Below are positions 6,001 to 64,000 of a DNA stretch of 64,000 bases, in pieces. Position numbers and translations under genes: made by a program. Origin of the DNA: Streptomyces dengpaensis. GTDB taxonomy: Bacteria > Actinomycetota > Actinomycetes > Streptomycetales > Streptomycetaceae. Each line of letters opens with the position of its first letter. The first letter of the stretch is position 1. The notes under the pieces are model-generated. The model was given only the letters and a program-made list of their open reading frames with translations. It was not told where the DNA came from and did not search any database. The stretch lies in assembly GCF_002946835.1 (NCBI RefSeq), contig NZ_CP026652.1, positions 8,370,001 to 8,434,000 of the forward strand, given 5' to 3'.

Positions 6001-9000
6001 ACTGGACCGGCATCACCTGGAGCACCCACGACCGCGACACCGTCGACGTCCTCCTCCTCGACCGGAACCGGCCTGCCGAAGGCACCCCTGTCGGCACCTA
6101 CGCCCCTGCCGGCACGGGCACCTCCGCCACGCCCCTGTCGACCTGGACGACCAACCCCGCCGCTCGCCGCGGCACCGGCGCCCTCGTCACCAAGCTCCGC
6201 GAGCACAGCCGTCACCATCTGCCCGACTACATGGTCCCGGCGTTCATCGTCCCCCTCGACCGGCTCCCCCTGACGGCTAACGGCAAGCTGGACCGTGCGG
6301 CGTTGCCGGCGCCCGAGTTCACGTCGGGTGGGGCGGGGCGGGAGGCGCGTACGCCGCAGGAGCAGATCGTGTGCGATCTGTTCGCGCAGGTGCTCGGGCT
6401 GCCGCGGGTCGGGGTAGATGACGACTTCTTCCATCTGGGCGGGCACTCGCTTTTGGCCACTCGTCTGATCGCCCAGGTCCGGGCGGTCTTCGGGGTCGAG
6501 CTGGAGCTGCGCTCGCTCTTCGAGGGTCCGACGCCGGCCGAGGTGGCCACGCTCCTGGACACCGCGGGGCCCGGCCGTCTGGCGCTCACACGGCGGCAGC
6601 GGCCCGACGTCATGCCGCTGTCCTTCGCCCAGCGTCGGCTGTGGTTCATCCACAAGATGGAGGGCCCCAGCGCCACTTACAACATTCCGCTGGCCCTGCG
6701 GCTGACGGGCGAGCTGGACCGCGACGGGCTGCGGGCCGCCCTGGGTGACGTGGTGGCCCGTCACGAGAGCCTGCGCACGGTGTTCCCGGAGGCCGAGGGC
6801 GTGCCGTACCAGCAGGTGCTGCCCGCCGAGACGGCTGTACCGCGTCTCACCGTCACACCGACGACCGAGACGGAGCTGCCGGACGTACTCACGTCAGCGT
6901 CCCGTCACCCCTTCGACCTCGCGGCCGAACCACCGCTGCGCGCCGACTTGTTCGAGCTGTCGGCGCAGGAGTACGTGCTGCTGGTGGTGGTGCATCACAT
7001 CGCGGGTGACGGTTGGTCGCTGGGCCCTCTCGCCTCTGATCTTGCTCGTGCTTATACGGCGCGGACGCAGGGGCAGGTGCCGGGGTGGTCCGATCTTGCG
7101 GTGCAGTACGCGGATTACACGTTGTGGCAGAACGAGCTGCTGGGTGACCAGGATGATCCCGACAGTCTCTTCGCGACGCAGATCGACTACTGGACCCGGA
7201 CGTTGGCGGGGCTGCCGGATCAGCTGGCGCTGCCCACCGACCGTCCGCGCCCGGCGGTCATGTCCTATCGGGGGGACTACGTCACGGTCGACATCGATCC
7301 GGCACTGCACCAGCGTCTGACCGATCTCGCGCGGTCCACGGGTGCCAGCTTGTTCATGGTGCTGCAGGCGGGTCTCGCGGCTCTCCTCACCCGTCTGGGC
7401 GCGGGTCGTGACATTCCTCTGGGCAGTCCCATCGCGGGTCGTACGGATCACAGTCTCGACCATCTGATCGGGTTCTTCGTCAACACCCTGGTCCTGCGAA
7501 CTGATACTTCGGGCAATCCGACGCTCACCGAGCTGATCAGCCGGGTCCGTGAGACGTCGTTGGCCGCTTACGCCCATCAGGACGTGCCCTTCGAGTACCT
7601 CGTCGAGCACCTCAATCCCACCCGCACCCTCGCCCACCACCCCCTCTTCCAGATCATGCTGGCCCTGCAGAACGCCCCCGAAGCGGCCTTCCAGCTCCCC
7701 GGTCTTCACATCGATGTGGCGCCCGGACGCACGCACACGGCCAAGTTCGACCTCTTCATCAGCCTCGCCGAGCAGCGTGGTGCCCACGGTGAACCCCAGG
7801 GCATCACGGGAGCCGTCGAGTACTCCAGCGACCTCTACGACGCTTCCACCGTCCAGGCCCTCTTCGACCGCTGGATACGGCTCCTCGACACCGCCACCAC
7901 CCACCCCGACCAGCCACTCAGCACGATCGGCGTCCTCTCCGCCGAGGAACACCGGAAGATCTTCCGCGACTTCAACGACACCGGGCTGCCCCTGCCCGAG
8001 GCGTCTCTCGCAGAACTCTTCACACGGCAGGCGGCCAGGACGCCGGACGCTCCCGCCGTCACGGACGGGGAGACCTCTCTGACATACGCGGAACTCGACT
8101 CCCACGCCAATCAGTTCGCCCACGAGCTGATCGCCAGGGGAGTGCGCCCCGGCGACTCCGTCGCTGTCCTTCTGCGACGTTCCGTCGTGACGGTCACCAC
8201 AGTCCTCGCCCTGACGAAGGCCGGCGCCGCCTACGTGCCGCTCGACGAGCGTCACCCGGCCGAGCGCATCCGGCATGTCCTCACCGACACCGGCGCCCGC
8301 CTGCTGGTCACCGACGACCTGACGGGCCCTCGACCAGGCGCTGAGGCATGTGAGTTGATCCGACTGACCTCGTTGGGCCATCCCGAGGCCGACCCCGGCG
8401 ACCCCGAGGCCACCGTCCATCCCGAGGCTGCGGCGTATGTGATGTATACGTCCGGCTCGACCGGTATCCCCAAGGGAATCGTGGTCAGCCACCGCAATGT
8501 CGCAGCTCTGGCCCTGGACCCTCGTTTCGACGGCCGGGCTCATGAGCGTGTCCTGCTGCACTCGCCCACCGCGTTCGATGCTTCCACCTACGAACTGTGG
8601 GTGCCTCTCCTCAACGGTGGAACTGTCGTGGTCGCCCCCGCCGGCGACCTCGATGTCCCCACCCTTCAACAGGTGATCGTCGAGCAGCGTGTCACCGCTC
8701 TGTGGCTGACCAGTTCCCTGTTCGACGTGGTCGTCGACCACGCCCCCGAGTGCCTGGCCGGAGTGCGCCAGGTGTGGACCGGCGGAGAAGCCGTCTCCGG
8801 CACGTCCGTCCGACGCGTTCAGGAAGCCTGCCCGTCCCTGACCGTCGTGGACGGATACGGACCCACCGAGACGACCACCTTCGCCAGCTGCCACCCTGTC
8901 ACCACTCGCTACGACGGCGGCCCGGTCGTGCCCATTGGCCGCCCGATGGCCAACATGCGTACCTACGTCCTCGATGCTGGACTGCAACCCGTTGCGCCCG

Positions 9001-11759
9001 GCGTCATCGGTGAACTCCACATCGCCGGCGCGGGCCTGGCCCGCGGCTACCTGCACCGCCCCGGCCTGACCGCTGAGCGCTTCGTCGCCGATCCCTACGC
9101 TCCCGATCCCGGTGCCCGTATGTACCGCACCGGCGACCTCGTACGCCAAAATCCGCAGGGCGTACTGGAGTTCATGGGCCGTGCCGACCATCAGGTCAAG
9201 ATCCGCGGGTTCCGTATCGAACCCGGCGAGATCGAGGCCGTGCTGGCCGACCACCCCGACATCGCCCAGGCCGCCGTCCTCGTCCACGAGGACCAACCCG
9301 GCAACACCCGCCTCATCGCCTACATCGTCACCAACACCGACGCGACAACCTCCAGCGACGAGGAGGAGCGGAGCCAGATCGGGGAGTGGAAGGATCTCTA
9401 CAACTCACTGTATGCCGAGCCGGGTTCGGAGTTCGGTGAGGACTTCTCCGGATGGAACAGCAGTTACGACGGTGAGCCCATCCCGCTGACCGACATGCGC
9501 GAGTGGCGTGCGGCCACGATCGAGCGCATCAAGGCGCTCAAGCCCGGCCGAGTTCTGGAGATCGGCGTGGGCACCGGGCTTCTCCTCGGCGGGCTGGCAC
9601 CCGAGTGCGAGGAGTACTGGGGGACCGACTTCTCACCCACCGTCGTAGAGGCGTTGCGGCGCCACGTCGATGCCGACCCCGAACTCGCCCGGCGTGTCAC
9701 CCTGCGAGCACAGGCCGCACATGAGCACGGCGAGCTGCCGCAGGGCCACTTCGACACGATTATCCTCAACTCCGTCGTCCAGTACTTCCCGAACGCCGGT
9801 TACCTGGAACAGGTTGTCGAGCAGGCCTTCCGTCTGCTCGCTCCTGGCGGAGCCGTGTTCATCGGTGACATCCGCAACCCGCGGCTGCTGCGCACCTTCA
9901 CCAGCGCGGTCCAGGCGGCCTGCGCCGACGACGTCGGCGACACCACCGCGGTACGCCGCGCCGTCGAGCAGCGCCTCGTCCTGGAGAAGGAACTCCTGGT
10001 GGACCCGGAGTACTTCACTGCGCTCGCTCACCACATCCCCGACCTCGCCGGCACCGACATCCAGCTCAAACGCGGAACCTCCCACAACGAACTCACCCGC
10101 TACCGCTACGACGCCACCCTCTACAAAACCGGCATCACCCCCCACCCCCTCACCGACACCCCCACCCGCCCCTGGCCCCGGGATCTCGGAGCCCTCGCCG
10201 AGCAGTTGCGCACCGCACGGCCCGAGCGGCTGCGGGTAACCGGCGTCCCGAACTCACGTATCGCGCACGATCTCGCCGTTCAGCACGCCCTCGAAGCCGG
10301 GACGGCGCCGACCGGTCCGCTCGTGCCCGGTGTCGATCCGGAGGACCTGCACCGGCTGGGGGAGGAGCACGGCTACTGGACCGCGATCAGCTGGAGCACC
10401 CACGATCCGGCCGCCGTCGACATCACCTACGTCCGGCGCGGACTCCTGGGGGAGGGCGTCGCCGTCGGCACGTACGCCTCCGCGGGCGCCGCCGGTCCCG
10501 GTACGCCGCTGTCCTCCTGGACCACCAGTCCGGCCGCTGGCCGGGACACCGGCGCCCTGCTCATCGCCCTGCGCGAGCACACCCGCCGTCTGCTGCCCGA
10601 CTACATGCGCCCCGCCGCCATCGTCCCCCTCGACCGGCTGCCGCTCACCGCCAACGGCAAGCTCGACCGCGCCGCGCTCCCCGCGTTCGCCCCGGAGCGC
10701 GCCGACATCGGCCGGGCACCGGCCACGCCGCAGGAACAGGTCGTGTGCGAGCTGTTCGCGGAGGTGCTCGGGCGGCCCGTCGTCGGTGTGGACGAGGACT
10801 TCTTCGACCTGGGCGGGCACTCCCTGCTGGCCACCCGGTTGATGGCTCGGCTGCGGGCCGCCTTCGGTGTCGAGCTGGGTCTGCGGAGCCTGTTCGAGGC
10901 GCCGACCCCGGGCGGGATCGCGGCCCGGCTCGAAGTCGACGACTCGGACGGCTCCTACGAGGTGGTGTTGCCGCTGCGCGCCCGGGGCAGTCGGCCGCCG
11001 CTGTTCTTCATCCACCCGGGCGGTGGCATCAGCTGGTCGTACAGCGCGCTGATCAAACAGCTCGGTCCGCAGTACCCGCTGTACGGGATCCAGGCACGCG
11101 GCCTGGCCCGTCCGGAGCCCCGGCCGGGCAGCATCGAGGAGATGGCGGTGGACTACGCCGACCAGATCCAGAGCGTGCAGCCGCACGGGCCCTACCACTT
11201 GGCCGGCTGGTCCTTCGGCGGACTGTGCGCGCACGCGCTGGCCGCGGAGTTCCGGCGGCGCGGTGAACCGGTGGCGCTGGTCGCGGTGCTCGACGTGATC
11301 CCCAACTGGCAGGGGCTGACTCATGCGGACGTACCCGCGCCCGACGACCGGGTGATGCTGCTTTACCACGTGGGTCTCGTCGATGACGGCACCCACCGGC
11401 AGGACGACGAGGAGATGACCTTCGCCAGGGCGCGGGAGATCCTGCGCCGCCAGGGAAGCGCGCTGGCCAACCTGGACGAGGACCGGCTCGCGGCGATCAC
11501 CGAGATCTCGGCGAACAACACCCATCTGACCATCGACTACCGGCCTGGCCCGATCGACGGCGACCTGCTGCTGATCGCCTGCTCGGAGCAGCAGGACCCG
11601 CCGGTCGACGCTGCAGCCTGGCAGCCGTACGTCCGTGGCACCGTCGAAGCGCATGTGGTGCCCGGCGAGCACGGGACCATGCTGACCCGGCCGGACACGC
11701 TGGCCGAGATCGGTCGGATCCTGTCGGCCAAGCTCCACGAACTCACCGGCGACGAGTGA
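1..11759 (+). CDS. acmC: Actinomycin-type NRPS, Pro / N-Me-Gly / N-Me-Val modules with thioesterase (5' partial)
   Basis: Multimodular peptide synthetase; the frame is open from base 3, so the gene starts upstream of the window. Domains in order, numbered from the GTG at 60: end of a C domain (to ~90), A1 (~107-620), PCP1 (Ser in GGHSLL ~659), C (HHIAGDG ~838), A2 with inserted N-methyltransferase (VLEIGVGTG ~1700), PCP2 (~2129), C (~2312), A3 with N-methyltransferase (~3164), PCP3 (~3585), TE (GWSFGG ~3717). Specificity residues seen: A1 D,V,Q,L..H,V,V (proline code), A2 D,I,L,Q,L,G,L,I,W (glycine code), A3 D,A,Y,W..G,G,T,F (valine-like). Pro-sarcosine-MeVal plus TE is the C-terminal part of the actinomycin pentapeptide lactone synthetase. 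The kynurenine-pathway genes downstream agree. The product assignment is family inference and is strong. Confidence 0.93.
2623..3500 (+). repeat. NRPS internal direct repeat, copy 1 (C domain)
   Basis: About 880 bp of the condensation domain that is nearly identical at the nucleotide level to 7042-7919, offset 4419 bp. The identity includes third codon positions, which suggests recent intragenic duplication or gene conversion. Confidence 0.85.
7042..7919 (+). repeat. NRPS internal direct repeat, copy 2 (C domain)
   Basis: Second copy of the near-identical condensation-domain segment at 2623-3500. Shorter near-identical blocks also join the A/PCP linkers (about 1857-2060 and 6280-6480) and the ends of the two methyltransferase inserts (about 5585-5785 and 9970-10178). 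Confidence 0.85.
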
Positions 11760-58499: not shown

Positions 58500-58861
58500 A
58501 GTGGTAGCGCGGCCACCTCTTGCGGGGCGCCGTCGGCCGCGGTGGCCCTGTTCAGCTCCCTGGGCGACCCGGCCGGCTGGCGATCCTGCGCCGCCTCGCG
58601 GAGGGTGAGGCCCGGGTCACGGACCTGGTCAGCGGTGTGGGGCTGGCGCAGTCGACCGTCTCGGCACACCTGTCCTGCCTACGTGACTGCGGGCTGATCA
58701 CCTCCCGGCCGCAGGGCCGGGCCTCTCTGTACTCGCTCGCCCGCCCCGAGCTGCTGGACCTGCTCGCTGCCGCCGAGCAGTTGCTCGCCGCGACCGGCGA
58801 GGCCGTCGACCTATGCCCCACCTACGGCACCCACCCCGCCCCCGAGGAGCCCGCCCGATGA
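58500..58861 (+). pseudogene. ArsR/SmtB-family metal-responsive regulator, frameshifted
   Basis: VALFSSLGDPA in one frame, then (one base lost near 58571) LAILRRLAEGEARVTDLVSGVGLAQSTVSAHLSCLRDCGLITSRPQGRASLYSLARPELLDLLAAAEQLLA in the next: a winged-helix ArsR repressor of the CmtR type with cysteines in the recognition helix (SCLRDCGL) and near the end. No clear start remains. Its stop overlaps the CDF exporter ATG, so it was the operon's regulator. Confidence 0.8.
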
Positions 58862-59559
58862 GCACCGCCCCCGCCGCCACGCCCGACGTGACCAGCCCGG
58901 CCGCGCACCGCGCGGTGCGCTACGCGAAGTTCACCATCGGCTACAACGTCATCGAGGGCATCATCGCCGTCGCCGCCGGCACGGTGGCCGGGGCGGTCTC
59001 GCTGATCGGCTTCGGCATCGACTCCGGGATCGAGGTCGCCGCCGCCGTGGTCGTCCTCGTACGGCTGCTGGCGGAGATCAAGGGCGGCGAGCCGGACGAG
59101 GCCAAGGAACGCCGGGCGCTAAAGTTCATCGCCGTCACGTTCTTCGCGCTCGCCGCCTACGTCACCGTCGAAGGCGTCCGCGACCTGATCGGCGGGGAGA
59201 AGCCCGACACCTCCCTCGTCGGCATCGCCCTGACCGGCCTGTCTATCGTGATCATGCCGTGGCTGGCCCATGCCAAGCGCAAGGCCGGGCAGGAGATGAA
59301 CTCCCGTCTGGTCGTCGCCGATGCCGTTGAGACCAAGCTGTGCGCCTGGCTGAGCGTGTCGACCTTTGTCGGCCTGCTCGCGTTCGCCGCGTTCGGCTGG
59401 ACCTGGCTGGACCCGGTCGCCGGATTCGTCATTGCCGCCTTCGCGGTCATGGAGGGCAAGGAAGCCTGGGAAGGTGAACTCGTCTGCGACGACGGCTGCG
59501 AAGACGACAAGCCCGCCGAGTCCGGCGAGGCGGCCTCCTGCTCGGACGGCTGCAAGTGA
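58858..59559 (+). CDS. Cation diffusion facilitator-like heavy-metal exporter
   Basis: A 233-residue membrane transporter of the CDF type with about six helices. KFTIGYNVIEGIIAVAAGTVAGAVSLIGFGIDSGIEVAAAVVVLVRLL contains the conserved D of the metal site (GIDSGIE), and LVVADAVETKLCAWLSVSTFVGLLAF the second-site DxxxT. The C terminus is cysteine-rich: LVCDDGCEDDKPAESGEAASCSDGCK. ATG 58858 overlaps the ArsR stop. This is the only intact member of a decayed ArsR-CDF-lspA block. Metal not assignable (Zn, Cd or similar). Confidence 0.9.
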   Translation: MSTAPAATPDVTSPAAHRAVRYAKFTIGYNVIEGIIAVAAGTVAGAVSLIGFGIDSGIEVAAAVVVLVRLLAEIKGGEPDEAKERRALKFIAVTFFALAAYVTVEGVRDLIGGEKPDTSLVGIALTGLSIVIMPWLAHAKRKAGQEMNSRLVVADAVETKLCAWLSVSTFVGLLAFAAFGWTWLDPVAGFVIAAFAVMEGKEAWEGELVCDDGCEDDKPAESGEAASCSDGCK

Positions 59560-59925
59560 CCGCCTCCATCAGCGAGTCAGCAGCTCGGTCCGGCGCCCTC
59601 AGGCGCCGGACCGAGCTGCTGACTCTGGCCGCCGTCCTCGCCGGGACGGACCTGGCCATCAAGGCATGGGCCGAGCAGGCCCTGCCCGGCGCCCCGGTCG
59701 AAGGCGGCCCACTCGACGTCCAGCTCGCCTTCAACCCCGGCGTCGCGTTCTCCTTTGCCGCCGACGCGCCCGTCTGGACCATGCTCGCCGTTACCGGTTT
59801 GATCGCCGCCGTCGCGATCGCGCTGTGGCGGCCGCCGCCCGTGGGGCACCGCACTCGCCGCCATCCTCGGCGGCGCGGCCGCCAACCTCGCCGACCGGCC
59901 CGCGACGGCCAGTCGCCCGACGTGA
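59556..59925 (+). pseudogene. Signal peptidase II (lspA) homologue, truncated and frameshifted
   Basis: GTG 59556 overlaps the CDF stop. VLAGTDLAIKAWAEQALPG and LQLAFNPGVAFSFAAD-type sequences match lipoprotein signal peptidase, then a frame slip near 59845 leads to TALAAILGGAAANLADRP with the first catalytic Asp motif, followed at once by a stop. The last helix with the second catalytic Asp is missing. lspA copies often accompany metal resistance operons on actinobacterial plasmids. Confidence 0.82.
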
Positions 59926-59958
59926 GCAGTCGTATTCGGGCGGCGGGTCTAGTCGGCG

Positions 59959-60230
59959 TCACACTGAAGTCGTGAGGTTGCGGCAGATGTCGCCTTCGGT
60001 ACACGTGGCCGGGTCGGTTTGGGTCGCACGACGGGCGAGTCCGCGCAGCGCCGCACGGGCCGCGACGAGCTCGGCCATGCGGCGGTCGATTTCGGCAAGG
60101 TGTGCGTTGATCAGCTCGGTGACATGCCCGCAGGGGCCTGGCCGTCGTCGCGCAGTTCCAGGACCGAGCGGATCTCGGCGAGGCTGAGGCCGGCGCCCTG
60201 GGCGTCGCGTCCTCGGCGATGTCCGGCCTC
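59959..60230 (-). pseudogene. MerR-family metal regulator, C-terminal remnant
   Basis: Minus strand: AQGAGLSLAEIRSVLELRDDGQAP, frame slip near 60130, then HVTELINAHLAEIDRRMAELVAARAALRGLARRATQTDPATCTEGDIC to a stop at 59959. This is the dimerisation helix and cysteine-bearing C terminus of a metal-sensing MerR; the DNA-binding N terminus is lost. Confidence 0.78.
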
Positions 60231-61149: not shown

Positions 61150-61617
61150 GTGCTGCTGCGGACCATCATCGTCATCCACATCGCGGCCGGGCTGACCGCG
61201 GTCACCGCCGGCGCGACGGCGATGCTTGCGCCGAAGCGTCCCGGCCGTCATCCGCGCAGCGGGCGCGCCTATCTCGGCGCGCTGGCCGTTCTCACCGCCT
61301 CGGCCGCGGTCGTCGCGACAGCTCGGCCACACACCGCTTACCTGCTGATCCTTGGCGCCCTCGCGTTCGCCTCGGCCGGGTACGGCTGGCGCGTCCGCCG
61401 CGTGCATCATCGGGGCTGGCGGTCGCGCCACATCACCGGCATGGCGCTCTCGTACGTCGCCATGTTGACCGCGTTCTACGTCGACAACGGCCCCCGACTG
61501 CCCCTGTGGAACCTGCTGCCCCCACTGACGTTCTGGTTCCTGCCCGCAGCCGTCGGCCTGCCCCTGCTGCTGCGAGCCCTGCGACGACACCACATGCCAC
61601 GCCGCTCCTCGGGGTGA
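61150..61617 (+). CDS. DUF2306-family membrane protein
   Basis: A 155-residue protein with four hydrophobic segments and conserved HIAAGLTAVTAGATAMLAPKRPGRHPRSGRAYLGAL and HITGMALSYVAMLTAFYVDNGPRLPLW blocks, typical of DUF2306 proteins. GTG 61150 has GGGGGAG a few bases upstream. It is divergent from PadR and may share its operator. Function unknown. Confidence 0.85.
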   Translation: MLLRTIIVIHIAAGLTAVTAGATAMLAPKRPGRHPRSGRAYLGALAVLTASAAVVATARPHTAYLLILGALAFASAGYGWRVRRVHHRGWRSRHITGMALSYVAMLTAFYVDNGPRLPLWNLLPPLTFWFLPAAVGLPLLLRALRRHHMPRRSSG

Positions 61618-61631
61618 GCAAGCGGCGGCGG

Positions 61632-62036
61632 TCAGTCGGCGGCGTTCTCGATGATGCGGCAGACCACTGCACCCTCGCCACGGTCGGCCGCCTGGTCGGC
61701 CTGGGCGCGGGCGTGCCGGAGGGTCGTACGGAGGGCTCGGAGGTCGGCGATGCGGCGGTCGATGTCGGCGAGGTGCTTGTCGAGCAGGTCGGTGACGAGG
61801 GCGCAGGGCTGTTCGCCACTGCGCTGGAGGTCGAGGATGCCCTTGATCTCCTTGAGGCTGAGGCCGAGGGCCTGGGCCTGGCGGATGAAGCCGAGGACGG
61901 GGACGGCGTCGTCGGTGTAGGTGCGGTAGCCGGCGGCGGTGCGCTCGGGTGGGTCGATGAGGCCGTTGGCCTCGTAGAGGCGGACGGCCTTGGGGCTCAG
62001 TCCGGTCTGGGCGGCGACGCGGCCGACGGTGAGCAT
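61632..62036 (-). CDS. MerR-family metal-responsive activator
   Basis: A 134-residue regulator: MLTVGRVAAQTGLSPKAVRLYEANGLIDPPERTAAGYRTYTDDAVPVLGFIRQAQALGLSLKEIKGIL is the MerR DNA-binding domain, followed by a long dimer helix. Cys78 (EQPCALV) sits where ZntR/MerR carry a metal-ligand cysteine and CueR has serine, and Cys126 (VVCRII) is in the C-terminal metal loop. It is divergent from the cyclodipeptide synthase; the dyad at 62078-62098 is its expected binding site. The metal is uncertain: the operator looks CueR-like but the cysteine at 78 favours a divalent ion. Confidence 0.93.
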   Translation of the reverse strand: MLTVGRVAAQTGLSPKAVRLYEANGLIDPPERTAAGYRTYTDDAVPVLGFIRQAQALGLSLKEIKGILDLQRSGEQPCALVTDLLDKHLADIDRRIADLRALRTTLRHARAQADQAADRGEGAVVCRIIENAAD

Positions 62037-62074
62037 GGTGGGGCTCCGTTCGTGCGAAGGGTTTCAGTGTGCGC

Positions 62075-62106
62075 TTGACCTTGCCCTATGGGCAAGGTTT
62101 TAGCGT
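62075..62106 (+). promoter_or_regulatory. MerR-type promoter with 20-bp spacer
   Basis: -35 TTGACC (62075-62080), perfect dyad ACCTTGCCC-TAT-GGGCAAGGT (62078-62098), -10 TAGCGT (62101-62106). The 20-bp spacer with a centred dyad is the hallmark of promoters untwisted by metal-bound MerR proteins. The ATG begins 7 bp after the -10, implying a leaderless transcript. Confidence 0.88.
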
Positions 62107-62113
62107 CCGGGGC

Positions 62114-62830
62114 ATGAGCACAGACCAAGGCGACAGCGGCGGCCGTACAGCGGCGATGTCGGTGACTCCGCTGAGCGGCCGGTGCGCCGAGGCGGTCGAG
62201 CGGGCCGAGCACGTCTGCTTCGGGATCTCCCCGTTCAACAGCTACTTCTCCACGGCCCGGATCCGCGAGCTGGCGGCGTGGGGGCTCGACCGGTTCGAGC
62301 GGGTGGACTTCTTCGTGCCCGACGTGCCGAGTGCGTTCACCTTCGAGGCGCTGGGATACGCCCCGGAGAAGGCGGCGTGGAAGGCTCGCAGGCAGGGCCA
62401 GTACACCCGCAACAAGATCGTCACCGCGCTGGGTTCGCTCGGTGTGACGGACACGGAGGCGCGGGTGCTGGGTTGGGCTGAGCTGGAGGCCAATGCGGTG
62501 TTCGGCCGTCTCCATGCGGGCGGGCTGCGCCGGTACGGCGAGGACGTAGCCTTTCGGGACGCCTGCCGGGAGGCGACCGGGTGGGTGCTGGCGGGGAAGC
62601 TGCCCGCAGGGCAGGCGCCGGACGAGGAGCAGGTGGAGCGGGCGGTGCGTTACTTCCTGGCCGAGCTGCCGCTGTTCATCGACACCCCGGCGATCGTCGG
62701 CGCCGAGACGTCCGTGTTCTGCTACCACGAGCCGCCTGCTGTGCTGCGCCGTCTGTACGGGGGCGAGCTGAGCTGGCGTCCCGCCGCCGGGCAGGGCTTC
62801 GCCGTTGTGGCACCGGCCGTACGCGACTGA
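62114..62830 (+). CDS. tRNA-dependent cyclodipeptide synthase (NYH subfamily)
   Basis: A 238-residue enzyme that condenses two aminoacyl-tRNAs to a cyclodipeptide (2,5-diketopiperazine). Diagnostic residues: catalytic Ser39 in GISPFNSYF with Asn42, the basic helix [12 protein letters not shown] for tRNA binding, Tyr180 and Glu184 in RYFLAELP, and Tyr204-His205 in FCYHEP. Asn/Tyr/His places it in the NYH group with AlbC. ATG 62114 coincides with the predicted transcription start. No tailoring oxidase is adjacent; instead a P-type metal ATPase follows after 17 bp. Product amino acids cannot be read off here. Confidence 0.93.
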
Positions 62831-62847
62831 GAGAGAGGAGTGCTGCC

Positions 62848-64000
62848 GTGACGACCACCACTCGGGCCGATGCCGAGCAGTCCATAGAACTGGCCATCAC
62901 CGGGATGACCTGCGCCTCGTGCGTGGCGCGGGTCGAGCGGAAGCTGGGCAAGCTGCCCGGAGTGACCGCGACGGTGAACCTGGCGACCGCGACCGCGCAC
63001 GTCACCCGTGAGGACCTGGCAGTCGAGGTGGCACAGCTGATAGCCGCCGTCGAAGCGATCGGTTACGGCGCCGAGGCGCCCCGGAGCGGCGCACCGGGCG
63101 CGGACGATGAGACGGTCGACGCCGAGGGCGCACACCTTTCCGGGCTGCGCCGCCGCCTGATCGCCTCGGCGCTGCTCGGCCTGCCCGTCGTCCTGGTGTC
63201 GATGATCTCCCCGCTGCACTTCCCCGGCTGGGAGTGGATCGCGCTCGCGCTGGCGACCCCTGTCGTGGCGTGGGGCGCGTGGCCGTTCCACCGGGCCGCA
63301 GCCCTGAACCTGCGGCACGGGTCGGCGACGATGGACACTCTCGTGTCGCTGGGCGTGCTGGCCGCCTACCTGTGGAGCGCGGGGACCTTGGCGCTGGGTG
63401 GGCATCACCTGTACCTGGAGGTGGCCGTCGTCCTGACGGCCTTCCTGCTGGCGGGCCGGTTCTTCGAGGCCCGTGCCAAGCGGCGGGCCGGGGACGCGAT
63501 CCGGGCGCTGATGGACCTGGGTGCCAAGGACGTCGCCGTACTGCGCGACGGAACAGAAGTCCGGATCCCGGTCGAGGAGTTGGCGGTCGGCGACCTGTTC
63601 CTGGTGCGGCCCGGCGAGAAGATCGCCACGGACGGTCAGGTCGTCGAGGGCGCATCAGCGGTGGACGAGTCGCTGCTGACCGGTGAGAGCGTGCCGGTGG
63701 AGGTCGAACCCGGCGCACAGGTCACCGGCGCCACCGTCAACAGCCACGGGCGCCTCGTTGTGCGCGCCAGGCGGGTCGGGTCGGACACAAAACTGGCGCA
63801 GATCGCCGCGCTGGTGGAGCGGGCCCAGACCGGCAAGGCGGAGGTGCAGCGCCTGGCCGACCGGATCTCGGCGGCGTTCGTCCCCGTCGTCATTGCCCTG
63901 TCGATCGGCACCTTCGCCGTGTGGATGGCGACCGGAGCCTCGGCCGCTACCGCGCTGACCGCCGCCATCGCTGTGGTGATCATCGCCTGCCCCTGCGCGC
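62848..64000 (+). CDS. Copper-type heavy-metal P1B ATPase (3' partial)
   Basis: Metal-exporting ATPase cut by the window end after ~384 residues. N-terminal HMA domain with [15 protein letters not shown] (CxxC), then membrane helices, the actuator loop with [17 protein letters not shown] (TGES) and the intramembrane CPCA that defines the CPC group (Cu+/Ag+). GTG 62848 has GAGAGGAG 7 bp upstream. It is 17 bp after the cyclodipeptide synthase, so it is co-transcribed from the MerR promoter. The phosphorylation domain lies beyond the window. Confidence 0.95.

Follow-up and report, generated by a model that had tools for sequence, protein, structure and literature searches.

A cyclodipeptide synthase gene in a MerR/copA-type operon of Streptomyces

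Genome mining for cyclodipeptide synthases (CDPSs) treats their genes as parts of antibiotic-type pathways, together with oxidases and methyltransferases. The CDPS gene considered here, from a 64,000-nucleotide stretch of Streptomyces dengpaensis (NZ_CP026652.1, positions 8,370,001 to 8,434,000; hereafter the window), lies in a MerR/copA-type arrangement, and this observation is real. Among described systems, CueR-copA operons have, as here, a MerR-type regulator encoded by a divergent gene, a long-spacer promoter with a dyad, and a P1B copper ATPase as the target. CDPSs of the NYH subfamily (AlbC, Rv2275 and YvmC, with the cCC/cCX and cPX groups of Gondry 2018 in the available part of PMC5816076, to which all statements from that source refer) share their family profile, catalytic residues and size with the enzyme of the window. 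The reading favoured here, at slightly under even odds (roughly 0.45), is that the operon responds to copper stress and that the enzyme encoded by its first gene makes a Cu(I)-binding cyclodipeptide beside CopA and a metallothionein.

The operon, its promoter and its metal

The CDPS gene is the first after a MerR-type promoter, with the MerR gene divergent from it and 17 bp between its stop codon and the GTG of the ATPase gene. A first-pass annotation had described a CDPS with all NYH residues behind a MerR promoter with a 20-bp spacer and a perfect dyad; the residues, the spacer and the 9-bp arms were all confirmed. Coordinates and profiles also agree with its placing of the CDPS gene 17 bp ahead of a copper ATPase with MerR divergent, and there is strong sequence support for placing the CDPS in a metal efflux operon under MerR control. 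The features, in window coordinates, are as follows.

61632..62036, minus strand: gene for a MerR-family metalloregulator of 134 amino acids (aa) (PF09278, 3.1e-21; PF13411)
62075..62106, plus strand: MerR-type promoter, -35 TTGACC, 20-bp spacer, -10 TAGCGT (motif search; kept in relatives)
62078..62098, no strand assigned: predicted operator dyad ACCTTGCCC TAT GGGCAAGGT, a perfect inverted repeat with 9-bp arms
62114..62830, plus strand: CDPS of the NYH subfamily, 238 aa, from the ATG at 62114 to the stop at 62830 (PF16715, TIGR04539, pocket and catalytic residues)
62848..64000, running on to 65046, plus strand: copA-like P1B-type Cu(+) ATPase with its GTG at 62848 (PF00403, PF00122, TIGR01511)
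58520..59559, plus strand: genes for an ArsR-type regulator and a cation-efflux (CDF) protein (PF01022, 1.1e-15; PF01545, 6.3e-12)
68682..68893 (L002 10683-10894), outside the window: second motif site and a 48-aa Cys-rich metallothionein-like open reading frame (ORF)

The arms of the dyad (62078-62086 and 62090-62098) match perfectly over 9 bp each. When TTGACCTTN11AAGGTNNTANNNT was searched with up to three mismatches, a single site was found in the 64-kb window and none in 100 dinucleotide shuffles; with up to two mismatches there were two sites in the 8.7-Mb genome, the reversed-pattern control giving none. Only 7 nt separate the -10 element from the CDPS ATG, so the transcript is probably leaderless. 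A plain sigma-70 scan of 61500-63100 (16-18-nt spacers) found no promoter, as expected with a spacer of 20 bp, and a terminator scan of the same region found none. The regulator has MerR DNA-binding domains and its promoter combines a dyad with a spacer of the 19-20-bp class, in keeping with membership of the MerR family.

The second site in the genome lies 6.6 kb beyond the first, ahead of the 48-aa Cys-rich ORF. This ORF has no Pfam or NCBIfam match, but one of its 69 relatives is named Metallothionein by UniRef, and we take it to resemble the mycobacterial MymT. The motif was also sought in other genomes under 15 handles, representing 14 genomes since G085 and G298 look the same, and was present in 15/15. 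Of the returned sites, 28 have no more than one mismatch, and these stand ahead of the CDPS (9), a small ORF of the 48-aa type (14), a copA-like gene (L064), a small membrane protein (3: L081, its duplicate L082, and L089) or an unrelated-looking ORF (L086); sites with two mismatches, for example L077 and L088, look unrelated.

The complete ATPase (732 aa, 384 of them inside the window) was read from the genome sequence. It passes the copper-ATPase model TIGR01511 (558 bits, cut-off 397) and is also above the cut-off of a Cd-family model (389 against 313.5 bits). Its N-terminal HMA domain carries GMTCASC, the CPC motif is at the window edge, and YN and MxxSS occur in the last membrane helices. 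Together with TIGR01511, these motifs, which we take to be P1B-1 copper-ATPase signatures, place it among the P1B-1 enzymes. Copper is the most likely metal of the operon, because the ATPase passes the copper profile and the same motif precedes the metallothionein-like ORF.

The ArsR and CDF genes belong to the same metal island and lie outside the CDPS operon; a short signal-peptidase-II-like ORF stands next to them (58520-59975). The island also holds a gene for a DUF326 protein (L002 14001-14411), presumably one of a family of copper storage proteins.

Distribution of the arrangement

The first-pass annotation had proposed a search for the same synteny elsewhere. In all 12 related Streptomyces loci returned (76-89% identity), a MerR gene and a CopA-like ATPase gene stood beside the CDPS gene. 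Some CDPS match at E 1e-10 was found in 99 genomes of an even sample of 295 Streptomyces genomes; five matches, the window included, had at least 77% identity, and 5/5 had MerR and ATPase neighbours, one ATPase being broken. The two sets overlap, as G085 of the genus sample appears to be the genome of L006. The three plasmid matches (about 80%; Streptomyces linear plasmids) all carry the MerR-CDPS-ATPase set, for which existing annotation by others gives the names heavy metal-responsive transcriptional regulator, tRNA-dependent cyclodipeptide synthase and heavy metal translocating P-type ATPase. An ArsR/SmtB regulator gene adjoins the MerR gene on all three and a cation transporter gene is beside it on one. 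These relatives rule out the reading that the set is unique to this genome.

Two controls were made with more distant CDPSs. No MerR or ATPase neighbour was detected by tblastn in the 25 loci returned at 34-55% identity (flanks of about 1.5 kb), nor in 10 loci at 47-55% with flanks of about 5 kb, one flank being cut to 1.2 kb by a contig end. In a class-wide sample only 3/394 genomes, again including the window, matched the CDPS at 1e-45 or better. The arrangement is thus limited to Streptomyces, and to a minority of them; CDPS relatives occur elsewhere. A CDPS fragment (67% over 61 residues) was also seen at L058 6144-6320 (G212), about 3.4 kb from a CopA-like gene.

Two ARRANGEMENTS are present among the CDPS-MerR-ATPase loci, type A (14 loci) and type B (5 loci). 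Type A, made up of the window, seven loci from the related-locus search, three from the genus sample and the three plasmids, has the order MerR, promoter, CDPS, ATPase; the ATPase frame is open in 13/14 (730-736 aa) and starts 10-48 bp after the CDPS stop. In type B (L007, L009, L010, L011 and L014; the CDPSs of L009 and L011 are identical over the aligned part) the order is CDPS, a convergent MerR gene, a small copZ-like HMA gene, profile-checked in L010 and L014, and the ATPase. The type B CDPS gene is detached from the copA promoter, and a motif copy still stands directly ahead of it in 5/5. A motif model built from type A and small-ORF sites only, with the type B sites left out, ranked the site upstream of the CDPS first in 5/5 type B loci (scores 17-34, next best at most -3.8), and in every one the site ends 6 nt ahead of the start codon. 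The detached CDPS has thus retained a metal-type promoter.

The regulator was followed in the same way. Ten MerR copies with at least 77% identity occur in 9/295 Streptomyces genomes, and 10/10 adjoin a copA-like gene or its remains, with a CDPS between or not. The first gene divergent from these ten is an intact CDPS in five cases, an internally deleted CDPS in one (L111) and a copA-like gene in four. At these MerR-copA loci the CDPS is therefore internally deleted once, perhaps lost once and absent without trace three times, which makes it an accessory that can be lost. The sensor-region residues Cys78 and Cys126 are kept in all 11 type A and 5 type B loci aligned (16/16). The best NCBIfam match of the window MerR is CueR (96.9 bits, below the cut-off of 147.4).

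Of 11 type A loci, nine have a DsbD-cupredoxin gene nearby and six an HMA protein gene. A gene for an S-adenosylmethionine (SAM) methyltransferase at L002 7130-7864, convergent behind the ATPase, could act on the CDPS product.

The enzyme, its sister branches and its predicted product

The CDPS matches PF16715 with E=7.7e-71 (238.8 bits, cut-off 27) and TIGR04539 with 269 bits (cut-off 45). When it was aligned to AlbC, the residues S37, N40, Y178, E182, Y202 and H203 (AlbC numbering) were all present; we take these to be the CDPS catalytic and NYH-subfamily residues. In pairs with the window gene dN/dS was 0.18-0.30 in 15/15, so the CDPS is under purifying selection.

The substrate pocket reads CGFPWLFF (P1) and AWVGEPA (P2). 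Of the 120 proteins listed, which include that of the window and two partial rows, 118 retain the frame CGFPxLFF/AWVxxxx with few changes, and position 119 varies in the distant ones. None of the motifs noted from PMC5816076 equals this pair. The cCC group of that paper has 60 members, 11 of them tested, with its consensus shown as a figure. The nearest listed Cys motif is VGYPSIFF, the P1 of the Cys-using CDPS 102; a sister row of the window pocket has CGYPSLFF. P1 motifs listed for Pro-using enzymes are CGHPWLLY, LGFPWFMF, VGLPWFFF and LGLPWLFF, and P67 and W119 of the window pocket occur in 4/4 of them. Similar P1 motifs are also found in enzymes with other products, and PMC5816076 calls such prediction uncertain.

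A cyclodityrosine (mycocyclosin-like) product, suggested by database names, was rejected: the pocket lacks the cYY motif, VG[IV]TMLFN with Asn at position 200, and the CDPS scores 157 bits against a cut-off of 300 for the cyclodityrosine equivalog. With the listed cYY, cFX and cWX motifs eliminated, and with sister rows that bear S, G or A at position 119, a product containing Cys is somewhat favoured by the pocket comparison. A thiol product is plausible in that the pocket permits one, and it does not prove one. There is a precedent for a dithiol diketopiperazine that chelates copper, namely reduced gliotoxin (available part of PMC12472470).

In a tree of 36 rows the type A and type B enzymes and the CDPS of L102 fall on one side and the relatives at 47-55% on the other (support 86-88, not starred). 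Part of this sister branch is found in copper islands. On the NBC_00637 plasmid (L101 8974-13239) genes for a CDPS, a BlaI/MecI/CopY-type regulator, an M56 peptidase and CopC/CopD lie in a row, and a regulator of this type or a peptidase is near the CDPS in L044-L046, L096 and L097; the last two are from another genus (G521), where the regulator or peptidase is not in one line with the CDPS. SCO1 genes are near in four of these five loci, while L045 has instead DsbD-like and redoxin-like neighbours, the latter assigned by reading. Since the regulators score well below the cut-off of the CopY/TcrY profile, 'CopY-type' is a family label and no proven sensor. Another sister set, L047-L053, has a neighbourhood that looks like thiol chemistry: a rhodanese-like gene in 7/7, a permease gene in five, a thioredoxin-like gene in five and a thioredoxin-reductase-like gene in three (profiles in L047 and L048). 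L095 has, by reading only, an aldo-keto reductase-like neighbour.

L102 is on plasmid pI of S. mirabilis P16B-1. Genes for an SbnA/CysK-like pyridoxal phosphate (PLP) enzyme, an MFS protein and the CDPS overlap there by 4 bp each (6588-9804). A cupredoxin gene and a P-type ATPase gene lie at distances of about 4 kb and 9 kb, and it is possible that the overlapping genes form a metallophore operon. The argument that a 'cysteine synthase' beside this CDPS proves a Cys substrate was weakened, as the best profile for that PLP enzyme is SbnA, which itself falls short of its cut-off (237 against 350 bits), while cysteine synthase gives 171. CDPSs nearer to that of S. mirabilis (P0065) were sought in 392 Streptomyces genomes at E 1e-75, and the five genomes with matches all carry the known type A loci. 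The word 'cyclodipeptide' occurs 0 times in the main text, as available, of the S. mirabilis plasmid study (PMC9195940).

Possible roles of the cyclodipeptide and comparison with known systems

In the proposed mechanism, excess Cu(I) would be sensed by MerR through Cys78 and Cys126, and the activated regulator would bind and switch on both promoters, that of CDPS-copA and that of the metallothionein-like ORF. The CDPS would join two aminoacyl-tRNAs, one of them probably Cys-tRNA, to give, as a best guess, cyclo(Cys-Cys) or cyclo(Cys-X). The product thiols could then bind cytosolic Cu(I), making the cyclodipeptide a tRNA-derived small-molecule partner of metallothionein that buffers the ion until CopA pumps it out. 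The CDPS would be an accessory layer, kept by selection, that the rest of the operon can do without. The first-pass annotation had suggested that the diketopiperazine might bind, buffer or signal the metal, which is plausible, and that the ATPase might export metal or complex; for export of the complex no support was found here. A bolder version is put forward tentatively, with the odds against it: copper-induced cyclo(Cys-Cys), made from two cysteinyl-tRNAs, might be a minimal metallothionein substitute encoded by one gene within the operon of a copper pump, a second branch lying in other actinobacterial copper islands under CopY-type regulators.

Several observations weigh against this proposal. 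The two genes share an operon layout, but the coupling of CDPS and ATPase claimed in the first-pass annotation is weakened by single loci: in L055 (6411-7695) the CDPS and MerR genes are intact, whereas frame changes and a loss inside the gene have broken the ATPase, in L111 (G153) an in-frame internal CDPS deletion precedes a kept ATPase, and in L108 (G278), also with its ATPase kept, a few end codons seen by eye are a possible CDPS remnant, of which tblastn reports none. The MerR adjoining the type B CDPS is only about 39% identical to that of the window; two of the five type B genomes have a further MerR close to that of the window, and in the other three none was found at E 1e-35. The window MerR itself is under every NCBIfam cut-off, including that of the CueR equivalog, and in it Asp118 stands opposite CueR's first loop Cys, the second aligning with Cys126; both points leave room for another soft metal as the inducer. 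CGFPWLFF resembles the Pro-type LGLPWLFF no less than it does VGYPSIFF (PMC5816076). No copper gene was found among the scanned neighbours of L047-L053, the L102 CDPS (64%, same branch) has no MerR, ATPase match or motif in 18.8 kb, and the SAM methyltransferase gene near six of 11 type A loci could modify the CDPS product.

The last of these observations suits a different role, in which the cyclodipeptide, or a derivative made by enzymes with genes elsewhere, for which this methyltransferase is a candidate, is secreted under copper stress and either binds copper outside the cell or, in complex with copper, damages competitors, as has been suggested for fluopsin C; the ATPase would then serve to protect the producer. 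In the same branch, the S. mirabilis CDPS shares its operon with an MFS gene close to cupredoxin and P-type ATPase genes, and CDPS products have been measured in the supernatants of E. coli cultures (PMC5816076). However, the type A operon contains neither a dedicated organic exporter nor a tailoring enzyme and its commonest neighbours are metal genes (DsbD-cupredoxin 9/11, HMA protein 6/11), which makes secretion unlikely. It is likewise rather improbable that copper only triggers synthesis of a Pro-containing or other non-thiol cyclodipeptide acting as a signal or stress metabolite. P67 and W119 would fit such a product, being shared with all four Pro-type motifs, but sister rows with the same pocket frame have S, G, A, M or L at 119, and similar P1 motifs belong to enzymes with other products (PMC5816076).

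It seems very unlikely that the CDPS came as a passenger, as a mobile gene of secondary metabolism caught behind a copper promoter, and has no metal role. Its deletion, possible loss or absence at five of ten MerR-copA loci would agree with this, as would the plasmid-borne operons of some strains; against it, the gene occurs in 14 type A and 5 type B loci (19 in all), is under purifying selection in 15/15 pairs, keeps its own MerR-type promoter when detached, and has sister-branch members in copper islands with another type of regulator. It is, finally, also very unlikely that the operon answers chiefly to another soft metal (Cd, Zn, Hg or Ag), with a thiol product buffering that metal. Cys78 aligns with a Cys of the mercury regulator 4ua1 and with a Ser of CueR, a Cys at this position having meaning for divalent metals, and the ATPase does pass the Cd-family model (389 against 313.5 bits). 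The copper model is nevertheless passed with more to spare (558 against 397), and the motif is found ahead of the metallothionein-like ORF too and, in relatives, ahead of copA-like genes.

No description of a MerR-CDPS-copper ATPase system was found in the literature searched, whose coverage excludes subscription papers, and in the available main text of a survey of CDPS neighbourhoods (Aravind 2010, PMC2922099) copper, MerR and P-type ATPase are mentioned 0 times. In over ten Streptomyces species the locus presents a CDPS wired into apparent metal homeostasis, with no tailoring enzyme in its operon. Should its product bind copper, this would be a novel class of metal ligand, one built from aminoacyl-tRNA, and NYH CDPSs with the CGFPxLFF pocket would gain a testable function with an inducer metal, copA and a metallothionein-like protein as partners, and a predicted thiol chemistry.

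The locus differs from the CueR-copA operon in having the CDPS between promoter and ATPase and a MerR that is under the CueR cut-off, with Asp for one sensor-loop Cys. In Bacillus the cyclic dipeptide of the pulcherriminic acid pathway is oxidised by a P450. That pathway (available part of PMC7731078) can be likened to the present proposal for its cyclic dipeptide as metal ligand, but it uses iron, whereas the genes here are of copper type and the operon has no P450. Compared with the NYH CDPSs of PMC5816076, there is no tailoring oxidase in the operon, the promoter is of metal type and the pocket pair is unlisted. Fluopsin C and other copper-induced ligands are also small sulfur ligands formed on copper stress, and different enzymes than CDPSs make them. 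The bacterial metallothionein MymT and the plant phytochelatins are Cys-rich cytosolic metal buffers, as is proposed for the product here, which would, if the Cys prediction holds, be a ring of just two residues made from aminoacyl-tRNA.

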